A stretch of DNA of 34,622 bases. Origin: a virus. Of the stretch, positions 6,946 to 27,649 are shown piece by piece; position 1 is the first letter of the stretch, and every line of letters begins with the position of its first letter. The DNA is taken from positions 1-34,622 of the IMG/VR virus record IMGVR_UViG_3300045796_000003. One strand, written 5' to 3'. Under the pieces are notes generated by a model. It saw only the letters and a program-made list of their open reading frames with translations, was not told the DNA's origin and made no database searches. The translations under genes were made by a program, and so were the position numbers.

Positions 6946-7839
6946 TCATGAAACCAAATCAGATTGCAATTTGATCTTGTACCACTCCGGCAATCCAGAA
7001 ACTACTCCGCGTTTGATTTGGCCTATGAAATGGGTGTAAAGCTTTTCCTTGATGTAGTCGGATTCCTCTTTTTCCAAATCAGCCGGAACCTCCTTCATCA
7101 GCGCGCCGATGTCTTGTGGCGCATTGACCAGAACCCCATTGTCTCGCAAATGTTGCACGGCTTTATTCCACCGCGCATCGGTCTTCAGTTCGCCGATTAA
7201 ATGCTGAACGAAATCGGTTGGCGTCGGGTGTGGTTGTTTCCATTCGTGCCGATGCTTTTCTTGGAAATCAGGCGCAACAAATTTGGCAATGGCAATCTTT
7301 TTGTCTGCCGTAAACATGTTGTAGTTCTTGACCACAACTCCCTCAATCTTCGTTCCACCAAGCACTGAATCCTCGGCAATGAACATCGCCATATCAACCT
7401 TGCCTTGATCGCCCATGTAGAAGCACCGAACGCATTCAATGCCGATTCTAGACGCCTCACGCGCCTTTTCAGACGGCGAAAGGTAAACTTCCGGCCCTGT
7501 CATCACGTCGAACACCATCAAGTGATTCAACGGAATGCGCGAATACGCCAGCGTGTTATGCTTCGGAGATTTCAAATACTCACATCGGTAAACCCACCCG
7601 TCATGCAAGTCCAATGATTTAGCAGTCGCCACCGCAGCCTCAAACATTTTGTTCGGCGCGTCAACAATGACTTGCTGACCCTTTGACCGGCAGAGCAATT
7701 CGCCATTGACGCGAGCCATTGACCACTGCGACCCGTCAACCTTTTCTTCGATGACGACAGTGCCGGAGAAAATGTCTTGAATTGCGCGATGTCCAACAGC
7801 GTAAATTGACGGATAGGCCGATATTCTTTCGATGTCCAT
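6946..7839 (-). CDS. RNA ligase (Rnl2-like, covalent nucleotidyltransferase)
   Basis: A 297-residue ATP-dependent RNA ligase. Nucleotidyltransferase motifs are in order: motif I EEKVDGSQ at 31-38 with the predicted AMP-accepting Lys33; a motif III-type RCEYLK at 85-90; LMVFDV around 107-112; motif IV KIEGVVVKN at 164-172; and motif V KIAIAKFV at 181-188. This matches the RNA_ligase family (Rnl2/DRB0094-like) rather than DNA ligases. Such enzymes seal nicked RNA, classically undoing tRNA cleavage by host defence nucleases. The start ATG at 7839 has leader caacattATG. It sits between structural genes and is followed by a terminator, so it looks like an inserted accessory gene. Confidence 0.85.
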   Translation of the reverse strand: MDIERISAYPSIYAVGHRAIQDIFSGTVVIEEKVDGSQWSMARVNGELLCRSKGQQVIVDAPNKMFEAAVATAKSLDLHDGWVYRCEYLKSPKHNTLAYSRIPLNHLMVFDVMTGPEVYLSPSEKAREASRIGIECVRCFYMGDQGKVDMAMFIAEDSVLGGTKIEGVVVKNYNMFTADKKIAIAKFVAPDFQEKHRHEWKQPHPTPTDFVQHLIGELKTDARWNKAVQHLRDNGVLVNAPQDIGALMKEVPADLEKEESDYIKEKLYTHFIGQIKRGVVSGLPEWYKIKLQSDLVS

Positions 7840-9817: not shown

Positions 9818-10444
9818 ATGAATATTTCTGAAATGAACATCAAACACCCTAAAAAGGTGGTCGTTCCGATTGAAGCCGGATTGGCATGGGGCGAGGATGG
9901 CGCGATTTATCAGCAGAAGTACGATGGCGAGTTCCGCGTAATGTCTTTGCCTGATTGCAGCATTCTGGTTGGCGAGCAAATCGGCACCCGGTTTATTGCC
10001 TTTGATTGCGTCTCGTTTGTCGGCCTGGATGTCCGTAACTGCCCGCTGACCCAACGCATTAAATACCGCGATGAACTTTGCTACCGGAACCACATTGATC
10101 ACGCTGTGGAATTCGCAAACGGCAGCGCATTGCTGGCCGAAGTCCTTTTAGCTGGCGGTGAAGGCGTGGTGCGGAAAACTAAGGATTCCACCTACTACGA
10201 AACGATGATTGCTTGCAAGCGTTCACAAATCTTCATCTGTCGCATTACAACCAGCAGCCCAAAGCAATCCGCTTCAATCACGGACGTTCAAACTGGCGTA
10301 TACCTTGGCCATGTCCCAATGCTCGGCGGAAAAGCCGATCAAGTCCGCGTGGGGTCCATTATCCGAGTCGAGGCCGAAACAGTTCACTCAAGCGGTAAAC
10401 TTCGCGGTGCCAAATTGTGCCGCGAGTGGTTGGTTAAATACTGA
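9818..10444 (+). CDS. Minimal ATP-dependent DNA ligase
   Basis: A 208-residue protein with the DNA ligase motifs in order: motif I QQKYDGEFR at 32-40 (predicted nucleophile Lys34), a reduced Ia-type GE at 52-53, motif III FIAFDCVSF at 59-67, motif IV GGEGVVRK at 113-120 and motif V MIACKR at 130-135. Residues 136-208 (QIFICRI to REWLVKY) fit an OB-fold. It would seal nicks in phage DNA. It is much shorter than usual minimal ligases (about 270-300 residues), because the spacing between motifs I and III is only about 25 residues. First gene of a plus-strand cassette and 13 bases before queC. Confidence 0.8.
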   Translation: MNISEMNIKHPKKVVVPIEAGLAWGEDGAIYQQKYDGEFRVMSLPDCSILVGEQIGTRFIAFDCVSFVGLDVRNCPLTQRIKYRDELCYRNHIDHAVEFANGSALLAEVLLAGGEGVVRKTKDSTYYETMIACKRSQIFICRITTSSPKQSASITDVQTGVYLGHVPMLGGKADQVRVGSIIRVEAETVHSSGKLRGAKLCREWLVKY

Positions 10445-10457
10445 AACAAAAAACATT

Positions 10458-11027
10458 ATGATTCCAAAAACAATCATTCACCTCCTTTCTGGCGGGCTGG
10501 ATTCCGTTACAATGCTTTACGATTTAAAAGCGCAAGGGCACTTCGTCCATTGCCTGCTTTTTGACTACAAGCAAAAGCACGTTCAGGAATTAACGTTTGC
10601 AAAGGCGCATTGTCATCGGCTTGGGGTTCTTTTCACAACGATGGAGCTTCCTGCCCTGAATGGGCTAACCGATGAAAATTGGGTTGTTCCAAATCGCAAC
10701 GCCATTATGCTTTCGCTGGCGGTCAATGTAGCCGTTCAGGCTGGCGCGGACACAATCACTTACGGATGCAATAAAGATGACGCGGACTATCCGTTTCCAG
10801 ATTGCACGCTTCCATTTATTCAGGCCATGAATAAGGCCGTGGAATCGGCTGGATACAAGATCGAGATTTGCGCTCCATATCTCAATAAATCAAAAGCATG
10901 GATTGGCGGATTTGCTCAAGAAATCGGAGTGCCAATCCATGAGATTTGGTCCTGCTATAGGGGTGGGCCTATCCCATGTGGAACGTGCCCTGCATGCATT
11001 AAGTTGCAATCCGCAATCGGAAAATGA
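10458..11027 (+). CDS. queC: 7-cyano-7-deazaguanine (preQ0) synthase QueC
   Basis: A 189-residue enzyme from ATG 10458 (leader aaaaacattATG). QueC converts 7-carboxy-7-deazaguanine and ammonia to preQ0 using ATP. Visible hallmarks are the PP-loop SGGLDSV at 11-17, FDYKQKH at 35-41, VVPNRNAIMLSLA at 76-88 (family PGRN-type segment), DDADYPFPDC at 107-116, and the zinc ligands Cys166, Cys174, Cys177 and Cys180 in CYRGGPIPCGTCPAC. It is slightly shorter than the E. coli enzyme. No folE, queD or queE is visible, so the precursor would come from the host or from genes outside the window. The stop overlaps the start of the DpdA-like gene. Confidence 0.9.
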   Translation: MIPKTIIHLLSGGLDSVTMLYDLKAQGHFVHCLLFDYKQKHVQELTFAKAHCHRLGVLFTTMELPALNGLTDENWVVPNRNAIMLSLAVNVAVQAGADTITYGCNKDDADYPFPDCTLPFIQAMNKAVESAGYKIEICAPYLNKSKAWIGGFAQEIGVPIHEIWSCYRGGPIPCGTCPACIKLQSAIGK

Positions 11028-22686: not shown

Positions 22687-23303
22687 TTTACTTCAAGCTG
22701 TTCGTAAAGTTCATCCAGCTTTTTCTTGAACGGTTCGATTTGCAAACGTACACGCTCCTTGCGTTCGTCCGTCCAATCTAACAGCGGCCCAAACGCATCA
22801 TCGTTCATCAGTTCAGCCAGCGGCTTCTCCAATTTTCGAGGATCAAGGTTGGAAAGCAGCTTGTTGTAGTAATTCGTATGATGCGCGACCAGTCCAACCG
22901 TTCCGCCTTCAACCGACATGCCGCCAGCCTCAAACAACTCATTGCGCCATGCCAACGCCTCTTGAGGCTTCACCACGTCCGCCGCATTCTTCGCAATCCT
23001 CACAAAAAACCGCAACTGACGAAACGTTATTTCGTGGCCATTCGCATCCTTGAACAACTTGCCCATCTGCTGCCAGAAATCAACGGTCATCTCCTTTCCT
23101 GGCAACCGCTGGCACAAATCAATAATGTTCTGGCCAATCCGAACCGCGTCGCCAATCAACTTGACGCTTTTGCATCCGAAATCCTCAACCTCCCGCTTGA
23201 ACGCCGAAACATCGACTCCGATCAACGCCAATTTCTCGGCCTGATACTCGGCCTCTTTCGGGTTGGCGAGCAAAAACTTTTCGCGTGGATTTTCTTGATT
23301 CAT
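22683..23303 (-). CDS. Hypothetical helical protein
   Basis: A 206-residue protein beginning MNQENPREKFLLANPKEAEY, coupled to the next gene by ATGA at both ends. Its middle part (RIGQNIIDLCQRLPGKEMTV ... GHEITFRQLRFFVRIAK) recalls DUF3102-type phage proteins, in which a helical domain precedes a DNA-binding part. The C-terminus is a charged helix (RLQIEPFKKKLDELYEQLE). It leads into the packaging genes and may regulate or assist packaging. Function unknown. Confidence 0.55.
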   Translation of the reverse strand: MNQENPREKFLLANPKEAEYQAEKLALIGVDVSAFKREVEDFGCKSVKLIGDAVRIGQNIIDLCQRLPGKEMTVDFWQQMGKLFKDANGHEITFRQLRFFVRIAKNAADVVKPQEALAWRNELFEAGGMSVEGGTVGLVAHHTNYYNKLLSNLDPRKLEKPLAELMNDDAFGPLLDWTDERKERVRLQIEPFKKKLDELYEQLEVK

Positions 23304-23752
23304 TTGAGTTGTGACTTTCGTTTAGATGACATCCGATTTCTTGACTCCTCGTCCCGCTGACCGTGGCGCGGTTTAAGATTCAGCGCGCCCTGAATTTCGG
23401 TTAGCAACTTAGTCGCATCGTATTTGGTCAGCCCCACTTCGCGGGCGATCTCAGCCGGGCACCGATGGCCAAGGACATCGTCAAGGGCTGACGAATTCAA
23501 CGCATACAGAAGCATTCGAATGCCAAGCCATGGGTTTTTGAACCCCATCAACGTGCGACCTAGTTTCTCTAGACCAACTTGGTCCCTGATAATGATGCCA
23601 GAACCCGCTTCGTCAATCGAACCATTCCCCTCGTTGTCAATGTACCATGATACGACATCTTCGACCACCGGCTCGCTGACGCCGCAATCAGCCGCGCATC
23701 GCTGCGTCCATCCGCGACCATCGGTTTCTTGAGATTGAAAATCTTCTGTCAT
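23300..23752 (-). CDS. Hypothetical protein downstream of the hexanucleotide repeat
   Basis: A 150-residue protein from ATG 23752 (MTEDFQSQETDGRGWTQRCA). It contains a helix-turn-helix-like stretch (CPAEIAREVGLTKYDATKLL), so it may bind DNA. The frame stays open upstream through the repeat as about 37 Gly-Arg pairs and could begin at a GTG at 23986, giving an RGG-like N-terminal extension. The short form is preferred because another frame in the repeat has better coupling. The C-terminus is basic (RHGQRDEESRNRMSSKRKSQ). It overlaps the next gene by ATGA. Confidence 0.55.
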   Translation of the reverse strand: MTEDFQSQETDGRGWTQRCAADCGVSEPVVEDVVSWYIDNEGNGSIDEAGSGIIIRDQVGLEKLGRTLMGFKNPWLGIRMLLYALNSSALDDVLGHRCPAEIAREVGLTKYDATKLLTEIQGALNLKPRHGQRDEESRNRMSSKRKSQLK

Positions 23753-23765
23753 TGTATTTGATTTG

Positions 23766-24005
23766 TTACGACCGCGACCCCGACCGCGACCACGACCGCG
23801 ACCCCGACCGCGACCCCGACCGCGACCCCGACCACGACCCCGACCACGACCCCGACCCCAACCCCGACCGCGACCACGACCGCGACCGCGACCGCGACCC
23901 CGACCGCGGCCACGACCCCGACCGCGACCGCGACCACGACCCCGACCCCGACCCCGACCACGACCCCGACCATTCGAATCCAGCACGCAATATTGATGCG
24001 TTCAT
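23766..24005 (-). CDS. Possible low-complexity Ser-(Gly/Arg/Trp) repeat protein
   Basis: A 79-residue frame starting MNASILRAGFEW and continuing as Ser alternating with Gly, Arg or Trp to a stop at 23766. Its ATG overlaps the upstream stop as TAATG, the same coupling used by genes at 24544 and 24959, and it ends 13 bases before ATG 23752. This makes it the best-placed frame through the repeat. In this frame the variable base of each hexamer changes the amino acid. It could be a flexible linker-like protein, or the repeat may be untranslated. Confidence 0.35.
   Translation of the reverse strand: MNASILRAGFEWSGSWSGSGSGSWSRSRSGSWPRSGSRSRSRSWSRSGLGSGSWSGSWSGSRSGSRSGSRSWSRSGSRS
23769..23972. repeat. 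Hexanucleotide tandem repeat (CGACCN)34
   Basis: About 34 copies of a 6-bp unit CGACCN, where N is G, C or A but never T on the plus strand. Only two units depart elsewhere (CAACCC and CGGCCA). All three minus-strand frames and at least two plus-strand frames are free of stops. On the minus strand the unit reads as Gly-Arg, Ser-(G/R/W) or Val-(G/A/V). Nothing comparable occurs elsewhere in the window. Confidence 0.95.
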
Positions 24006-26857: not shown

Positions 26858-27649
26858 TTAATGTTTATCAAAGCCATTGGCTTGCGAGTGTTTTCCATGC
26901 AAGTTCAACCACACTTGGAATTTGGCCGTCTCCAGCGGACGCAAGTCTGTCCACCCTATTGGCCATCCCATCAAGCTCTCCCAAAACTGCGGGACTGCCA
27001 CACAACGCTTCGTGTTTGCGTATGCGATCAAGCAAACTTGGTGAATTAATTGAAGTTGCCTTTTGGAATTCAAACTTCTCCTCTTTACACTTTCCGTTAA
27101 AACCGTGTACCACTTCTGGCCATCCGACATGCATGGCCTTCGCAAGTATCCACAATCTCTTTCCATCTGTGTCCATGTCGGCGGCGGCACCGCCCAAAAC
27201 TCCATACCGACAGTCATACCCCAGCAAGGCCAAGTCTCCAAGCACAACTCCGATTCCTCGAACAATGAGGCTTGATGAGTTCTCCACAAATACGTAGTCT
27301 GGCAAAACGTCGCCAATGATGCTGATTTGTTCCTTCCAAAGTCCGCTATGCTTTCCTGTGATTCCTGATTTGTCTCCAGCATTTGAGATGTTTTTGCAAG
27401 GGAATCCGCCACACACAATGTCAACTTTTCCGTGCCATGGTTTTCCGTCAAATGACCTGACATCGTCCCAGATTGGAAACTTCGGCAGGATTCCATCCCG
27501 TTGCCGCTGCAACAAAACACTTCGTCGGTAAGGTTCAATCTCGACAGCACAGACGCAGGCATGTCCGAGAAGGATGCCGCCAAGCACTCCACCTCCTGCC
27601 CCGGCGAATAAATGGAGTTCGCGCATGATTCAGACAGGTAGTGATACAT
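26858..27649 (-). CDS. Second long ORF enclosing the methyltransferase gene in another frame
   Basis: From ATG 27649 to 26858 a 263-codon frame stays open on the same strand, covering the whole methyltransferase gene. Stretches look protein-like and recall a recurring phage protein type I have seen annotated next to methyltransferases: LWRTHQASLFEESE, LETWPCWGMTVGMEFW and ESLMGWPIGWTDLRPLE. The first two arise from the DNA of methyltransferase motif VI and the last from the motif IX/X region, so the resemblance could simply mirror conserved methyltransferase DNA. Whether it is translated is open; the methyltransferase frame itself is certain. Confidence 0.3.
   Translation of the reverse strand: MYHYLSESCANSIYSPGQEVECLAASFSDMPASVLSRLNLTDEVFCCSGNGMESCRSFQSGTMSGHLTENHGTEKLTLCVADSLAKTSQMLETNQESQESIADFGRNKSASLATFCQTTYLWRTHQASLFEESELCLETWPCWGMTVGMEFWAVPPPTWTQMERDCGYLRRPCMSDGQKWYTVLTESVKRRSLNSKRQLQLIHQVCLIAYANTKRCVAVPQFWESLMGWPIGWTDLRPLETAKFQVWLNLHGKHSQANGFDKH
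26868..27626 (-). CDS. DNA (cytosine-5) methyltransferase
   Basis: A 252-residue enzyme that methylates cytosine at C5 in DNA using S-adenosylmethionine. Motif I LFAGAGGGVLGG (6-17), EIEPYRR (29-35), motif IV GGFPCKNIS (73-81) with catalytic Cys77, GLWKE (95-99), motif VI FVENSSS (113-119), and RLWILA (157-162) in the motif VIII region. The end is ANRVDRLASAGDGQIPSVVE, the usual C-terminal motif IX/X region. Motif VIII is less arginine-rich than normal. The target is unknown. It may protect phage DNA or regulate genes. It is followed by a dense operon and preceded by the control region. Confidence 0.88.
   Translation of the reverse strand: MRELHLFAGAGGGVLGGILLGHACVCAVEIEPYRRSVLLQRQRDGILPKFPIWDDVRSFDGKPWHGKVDIVCGGFPCKNISNAGDKSGITGKHSGLWKEQISIIGDVLPDYVFVENSSSLIVRGIGVVLGDLALLGYDCRYGVLGGAAADMDTDGKRLWILAKAMHVGWPEVVHGFNGKCKEEKFEFQKATSINSPSLLDRIRKHEALCGSPAVLGELDGMANRVDRLASAGDGQIPSVVELAWKTLASQWL

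Follow-up and report, generated by a model that had tools for sequence, protein, structure and literature searches.

A C5-cytosine methyltransferase gene lies inside a second, longer open reading frame on the same strand of the window, by which we mean the whole 34,622-nucleotide stretch of viral DNA that was analysed. Is the longer frame a gene, and if it is, what does its product do? The original prediction described a 263-codon frame containing the whole 252-codon methyltransferase gene, and both ORFs were confirmed at the positions given below. Each starts with an ATG. The longer frame, ORF2, is in the +1 frame relative to the methyltransferase and encloses it entirely; ORF2 codon positions 1, 2 and 3 are methyltransferase codon positions 2, 3 and 1. 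We refer to the methyltransferase as alpha and to the ORF2 product as beta. The features of the locus are as follows.

26868..27626, minus strand: alpha, the C5-cytosine methyltransferase catalytic chain, 252 aa, with motifs I-VIII and X (PF00145, AlphaFold, VIA-align)
26858..27649, minus strand: beta (ORF2), 263 aa, +1 frame, enclosing alpha; proposed recognition-domain/motif-IX subunit (frame open in relatives, synonymous constraint, conserved start architecture, phrog_1008/26627/35493)
27647..27649, minus strand: ATG of ORF2, 23 nt upstream of the methyltransferase ATG at 27624-27626 (sequence)
27588..27608, minus strand: alpha motif I, FAGAGGG
27396..27410, minus strand: alpha motif IV, GGFPC, with the catalytic Cys
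27276..27284, minus strand: alpha motif VI, ENS
27147..27179, minus strand: alpha motif VIII region, DMDTDGKRLWI; family form GAPHxRxRIWI
26961..27110, minus strand: alpha residues 173-222, a short low-confidence linker (pLDDT below 50 over most of it; spacing of motifs VIII and X)
26913..26942, minus strand: alpha motif X, ASAGDGQIPS; family form KAIGNGQVP
27191..27319, minus strand: beta conserved core, residues 111-153, around WRTHQASLFEESE and ETWPCWGMTV (W122, P141 and G144 fixed)
26942..26992, minus strand: beta motif-IX-like segment PQFWESLMGWPIGWTDL, residues 220-236 (P220, P230 and W233 fixed)

Segments of ORF2 had been taken for a recurring phage protein type, rightly so: ORF2 matches three PHROG families, phrog_1008 (E 8.1e-12, ORF2 residues 69-156), phrog_26627 and phrog_35493. 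It has no match in Pfam or NCBIfam. The three PHROG families apparently correspond to ORF2 and not to the methyltransferase frame, and the label of phrog_1008, 'DNA methyltransferase', seems to have been borrowed from the overlapping gene. In tblastn searches of phage records ORF2 turns up within the methyltransferase genes of, among others, Vibrio, Pseudomonas, Klebsiella, Salmonella, Acinetobacter and Microcystis phages. Depositors have annotated one frame or the other; in Pseudomonas phage phPA-G and Vibrio phage 1.236.O the ORF2 frame is deposited as a 'hypothetical protein', and in other records the methyltransferase frame is annotated.

Elsewhere in the window, positions 10209-11027 on the plus strand encode QueC (PF06508, E 8e-42), a protein of 7-deazaguanine synthesis, hinting at a modified guanine in the phage. 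A 6-bp unit, CGACCC, is present in 34 copies at 23769-23971, so that a minus-strand ORF (23300-23986) begins with a long Gly-Arg repeat. An RNA ligase (PF09414, E 3e-13) is encoded near the structural genes, at 6946-7839 on the minus strand.

Alpha belongs to PF00145 (E 2.9e-20). Its AlphaFold model (pLDDT 79, pTM 0.73) aligns with M.HhaI over 200 of 327 residues (VIA-align Z 22), and with motif I, the PC of motif IV, the ENS of motif VI and the methyltransferase fold it meets the criteria for a C5 methyltransferase. It is not a complete monomer, being without a recognition domain and without motif IX. In M.HhaI about 130 residues separate motifs VIII and X; in alpha the distance is 61 aa, and the family median is 57. 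The linker at residues 173-222 lies where monomeric C5 methyltransferases hold the recognition domain and motif IX. Alphas of the nested type match PF00145 only over about positions 1-165/196 of 324, and monomeric enzymes from the same genomes match it over positions 1-322. The absence of a recognition domain from alpha is thus well established. M.EcoHK31I is a two-polypeptide C5 methyltransferase (YGGCCR) in which the large chain carries motifs I-VIII and X and the smaller chain carries motif IX alone (PMC3404938). Alpha, with motifs I-VIII and X and no IX, fits a large chain of this type. The window copy departs from its family at motifs VIII (DTDGKR) and X (GDGQIP), so it may be weak, inactive or decayed, though both frames are open.

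IMG/VR was scanned with both proteins, giving 95 loci and a non-redundant set of 83 methyltransferases that includes the window gene; nearly all relatives are 42-62% identical to it. Stops in the +1 frame were counted leaving out the first codon and the last 12, with synonymous codon shuffling within each gene as the null. Over 21,618 codons the +1 frame contains 10 stops, where 349 are expected. It is free of stops in 76 of the 83 genes, and the stops in the remaining ones are mostly near the C-terminus. The +2 frame is at expectation (1117 stops against 1023), and none of 146 other ORFs of at least 200 aa in the same loci has a stop-free +1 frame. In monomeric methyltransferases of the same bacterial genomes this frame is interrupted by 8-33 stops. 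The window gene taken alone is only mildly unusual, with zero stops against 3.2 expected and 1.5% of shuffles as low, and is weak evidence on its own; the absence of stops becomes decisive once the 83 relatives are combined. The relatives share descent, so that neither these counts nor those of conservation below are independent events, but several controls agree.

The protein encoded by the open frame is also conserved. Four-fold sites evolve more slowly than those of flanking genes matched for protein identity (0.25, compared with 0.45, at 80-85%). A dual-frame substitution count gives an alternate-frame dN/dS of 0.51 (0.46-0.56), where control genes give 0.84 (0.78-0.90); no comparable reduction is seen in the +2 frame (1.43 in the methyltransferase gene, 1.21 in controls). 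Between methyltransferases 50-55% identical, alternate-frame identity is 0.33 against a shuffle null of 0.24, so the shadow of the methyltransferase accounts for some, but not all, of the similarity. At conserved four-fold codons third-base diversity falls below the shuffle null in 88 of 97 columns, and some third bases are invariant. Val114 is GTG in 63/63 relatives, giving ORF2 Trp122; Ala133 is GCC in 55/55, giving Pro141; Gly136 is GGG in 81/82, giving Gly144; and Val239 is GTG in 79/79, giving Trp247. Nearly invariant synonymous sites such as these fix beta residues W122, P141, G144, P220, P230, W233, P238, W247 and H251, and the window ORF2 carries the same residue at all nine. Alpha columns from about 71 to 105 are mostly at the null, and third-base sites are therefore otherwise saturated. 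The constrained sites are Trp, Pro, Gly and His codons of ORF2, its start, and positions at which stops are avoided, which fits protein coding; constraint at the RNA level has not been separated from it.

The original prediction had allowed two outcomes, a large overlapping gene pair or a spurious database family produced by methyltransferase DNA read out of frame, and it named no role for the ORF2 product. The frame stays open in relatives, it shows synonymous constraint, and the substitution pattern is not explained by the methyltransferase frame alone; each of the named tests that could be run thus went against a spurious family and supported the gene pair. Both frames are intact, and purifying selection acts on the ORF2 protein across hundreds of loci. 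We regard it as close to certain that ORF2 is a coding gene.

The start of ORF2 is conserved in relatives. A double start, [A/G/T]TGAATG, occurs in 182 of 209 distinct relatives; it consists of the methyltransferase start, a stop that closes the +1 frame, and the ORF2 ATG 4 nt downstream. The first triplet is a non-standard start in 22 of the 182, and in these the methyltransferase must start elsewhere. A Shine-Dalgarno-like stretch precedes the starts in 144 of the 209, and in most relatives a single ribosome-binding site would probably serve two starts 4 nt apart. The window has lost the inner ATG. No stop is present at the lost position and an ATG lies 23 nt upstream of that of the methyltransferase, so the frame can still be started; beta would here begin 23 nt before alpha.

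Nested frames are also found in other methyltransferase subfamilies. With a phage methyltransferase of the C72C1 type as query we obtained 41 distinct genes, in which the +1 frame has zero stops in deciles 0.3-0.8, where about 170 are expected, and is at or above expectation at both gene ends. This nested ORF has an ATG behind AAAGGnG (AAGGnG), inside the methyltransferase gene. A third query, an Enterococcus-type methyltransferase with its own motif IX, gave 67 genes with 43 stops against 381 expected in deciles 0.1-0.4 and about the expected number from the middle of the gene on. In both of these subfamilies the nested ORFs have ribosome-binding sites and are sharply delimited; synonymous diversity is reduced within them and is back at or near the null beyond their ends. 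In Firmicute phage and plasmid loci (L303, L365-L444) the methyltransferase has its own motif IX, and yet a +1 ORF of about 150-190 aa is nested in its gene, lying over motifs II-VIII and ending in SLSDILEExVPEKYFLS; synonymous constraint is seen there only inside the ORF. Bacterial genomes and a marine archaeal metagenome bin (L259) have the nested arrangement as well, and the +1 relation holds in 269 of 270 loci. The odds are slightly better than even that this long overlapping pair is ancient and shared by several C5-methyltransferase subfamilies in phages, bacteria and the archaeal bin, the recognition part being read in the +1 frame from the DNA that encodes the catalytic domain; many phage methyltransferases regarded as monomeric may then have an overlooked second product.

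What beta does is harder to read from the window itself. Near its C-terminal end ORF2 has a motif-IX-like LMGWPIGWTDL in the right place, and motif IX is clear only in one relative, L280. Profile-profile comparison of ORF2 with monomeric methyltransferases (hhalign) found nothing, and a search of solved structures with the ORF2 alignment gave nothing significant. AlphaFold modelled ORF2 alone with low confidence (pLDDT 59, pTM 0.30), which we read as uninformative, and Foldseek found no match in the PDB for the model. Without a Pfam, hhalign or fold match, assignment of the recognition region and motif IX to ORF2 rests on position, a short motif and the bridge through L280.

L280 is a Verrucomicrobiales genome in which the locus at 208-2778 encodes a type II restriction enzyme (E 6e-82), a nested alpha/beta methyltransferase and Vsr; the two neighbours fit a working modification enzyme. 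A search for a solved relative of the restriction enzyme found none. Alpha of this locus has motifs I-VIII and X, and in the other frame the nested sequence reads YVRRMLPSEYERLQGFPKNWT, a canonical motif IX; the nested-frame protein carries the canonical RRMLPSEYERLQGFP. This protein matches positions 175-297 of PF00145 (E 5.6e-5, above the curated cut-off), and the portion of the family matched is the recognition-domain/motif-IX part. It also matches positions 184-301 of TIGR00675 weakly (E 0.0047, far below the cut-off). The ORF2 profile finds the L280 nested protein at E 1e-9 over profile positions 72-212, compared with 1e-3 for the best of the monomer shadows, and this match places the EWLMGWPIGW of the family about over the L280 motif IX. 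The PQFWESLMGWPIGWTDL segment of the window beta is in the same place as the canonical motif IX, RRMLPSEYERLQGFPKNW, of the L280 nested frame.

Mycobacteriophage Eagle (L186) provides a second comparison. Its gp78 holds motifs I-VIII and ends just after VIII, and gp77, in the ORF2 frame, continues through EWMMGW to a motif X-like IIGNGVV. The Eagle arrangement is intermediate between split and nested genes; tblastn listed 198 Mycobacterium phage records. Taken together, L280 and Eagle make the recognition region plus motif IX the most likely content of beta, and the evidence points to ORF2 as the second, recognition subunit of the methyltransferase itself.

We therefore propose, with a probability of roughly 0.77, that the genes of this nested pair each encode one chain of a single, two-chain C5-cytosine DNA methyltransferase, of the type represented by M.EcoHK31I. 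The annotated frame would give alpha, with the SAM-binding motif I, the catalytic PC of motif IV and motifs VI, VIII and X. The +1 frame would give beta and with it the target-recognition region and motif IX that alpha is missing, and the two would assemble into one enzyme as in M.EcoHK31I. Translation of ORF2 in this phage, its binding to alpha, the presence of motif IX on it and methylation of DNA by the pair are all inferred, without data at the protein level.

ORF2 might instead be a real nested gene with a job of its own, for example in anti-restriction or in regulating the methyltransferase, and not a structural subunit. This would sit easily with the lack of any fold or Pfam match for the window ORF2 and with the nested ORFs of methyltransferases whose own frame includes motif IX, from which it follows that donation of motif IX is not the role everywhere. 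We think it unlikely, as the part missing from alpha is exactly what ORF2 would supply, the L280 nested frame matches that same part of the methyltransferase family, and M.EcoHK31I is a precedent.

Programmed frameshifting into the ORF2 frame, which would join the catalytic N-terminal part and the C-terminus of ORF2 into a single chain, appears very improbable. Alpha and ORF2 segments do lie in one frame in 4 of 270 loci (L015, L118, L228 and L234), but these joined frames are either natural fusions or errors of assembly. In the 182 relatives with the double start ORF2 has a conserved start codon of its own with a stop before it, the second subfamily has internal ribosome-binding sites, and the N-terminal half of ORF2 is kept open too. 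That ORF2 is spurious, left open by the codon and residue bias of methyltransferase DNA, could draw on the shadow component of the alternate-frame similarity and on the modest p of about 0.015 for the window alone, but it is rejected, given that a null keeping both protein and codon usage leaves the stop deficit unexplained, that monomeric methyltransferases of the same genomes have stops in the frame, and that the synonymous sites are invariant and the double start conserved.

The principle of two chains is already known from M.EcoHK31I. Lee, Kam and Shaw reportedly found in 1995 that its small chain is coded inside the gene of the large chain, in another frame; the window shares this second chain in another frame over the same DNA, a likeness that was tested here and holds. 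M.EcoHK31I differs in being a bacterial restriction-modification enzyme, whereas the present genes are mainly from phages and have no restriction enzyme. Its larger chain has been described as also holding a predicted recognition domain, for which the variable region of the window alpha is too short. Unlike in M.EcoHK31I, ORF2 of the window spans and exceeds the whole alpha gene, and in most relatives of the window pair the starts are 4 nt apart. The genes of M.AquI are sequential, and the Eagle genes gp78 and gp77 are intermediate relative to that arrangement. M.AquI (CYCGRG) is a split C5 methyltransferase with motifs I-VIII on one chain and IX on another (PMC3404938). The pair as proposed would resemble it in having catalytic motifs I-VIII and motif IX on separate chains; the beta chain of M.AquI also has motif X, whereas in the window alpha retains motif X and one gene lies wholly within the other. 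In Paenibacillus phage Diva (NC_028788) both frames are annotated, the inner one with the note 'g49 internal gene'; the Diva methyltransferase is of a different subfamily (EDDRHLWPE type), and the note proposes no function.

A literature search found no description of a nested gene in phage methyltransferases, and in the literature searched neither the breadth of phage occurrence nor the nested ORFs in methyltransferases bearing motif IX were found described. We regard the system as a new variant, its new aspects being wide occurrence in phages, full-length overlap, a double start with 4-nt spacing, and nested ORFs in motif-IX methyltransferases. Long, fully nested pairs with both frames under selection have rarely been demonstrated in tailed phages. 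The present pair turns up in hundreds of loci, spread over several methyltransferase subfamilies, and offers unusual depth of data on how two proteins share one sequence. With phrog_1008 apparently a nested-frame protein, annotation pipelines may be spreading a label from the wrong frame. A nested pair of this kind would explain why gene callers choose either frame, and why a recognition domain is missing from many of the short C5 methyltransferases of phages. Expressed alone, or recoded in a way that destroys ORF2, the annotated frame could yield an inactive enzyme.
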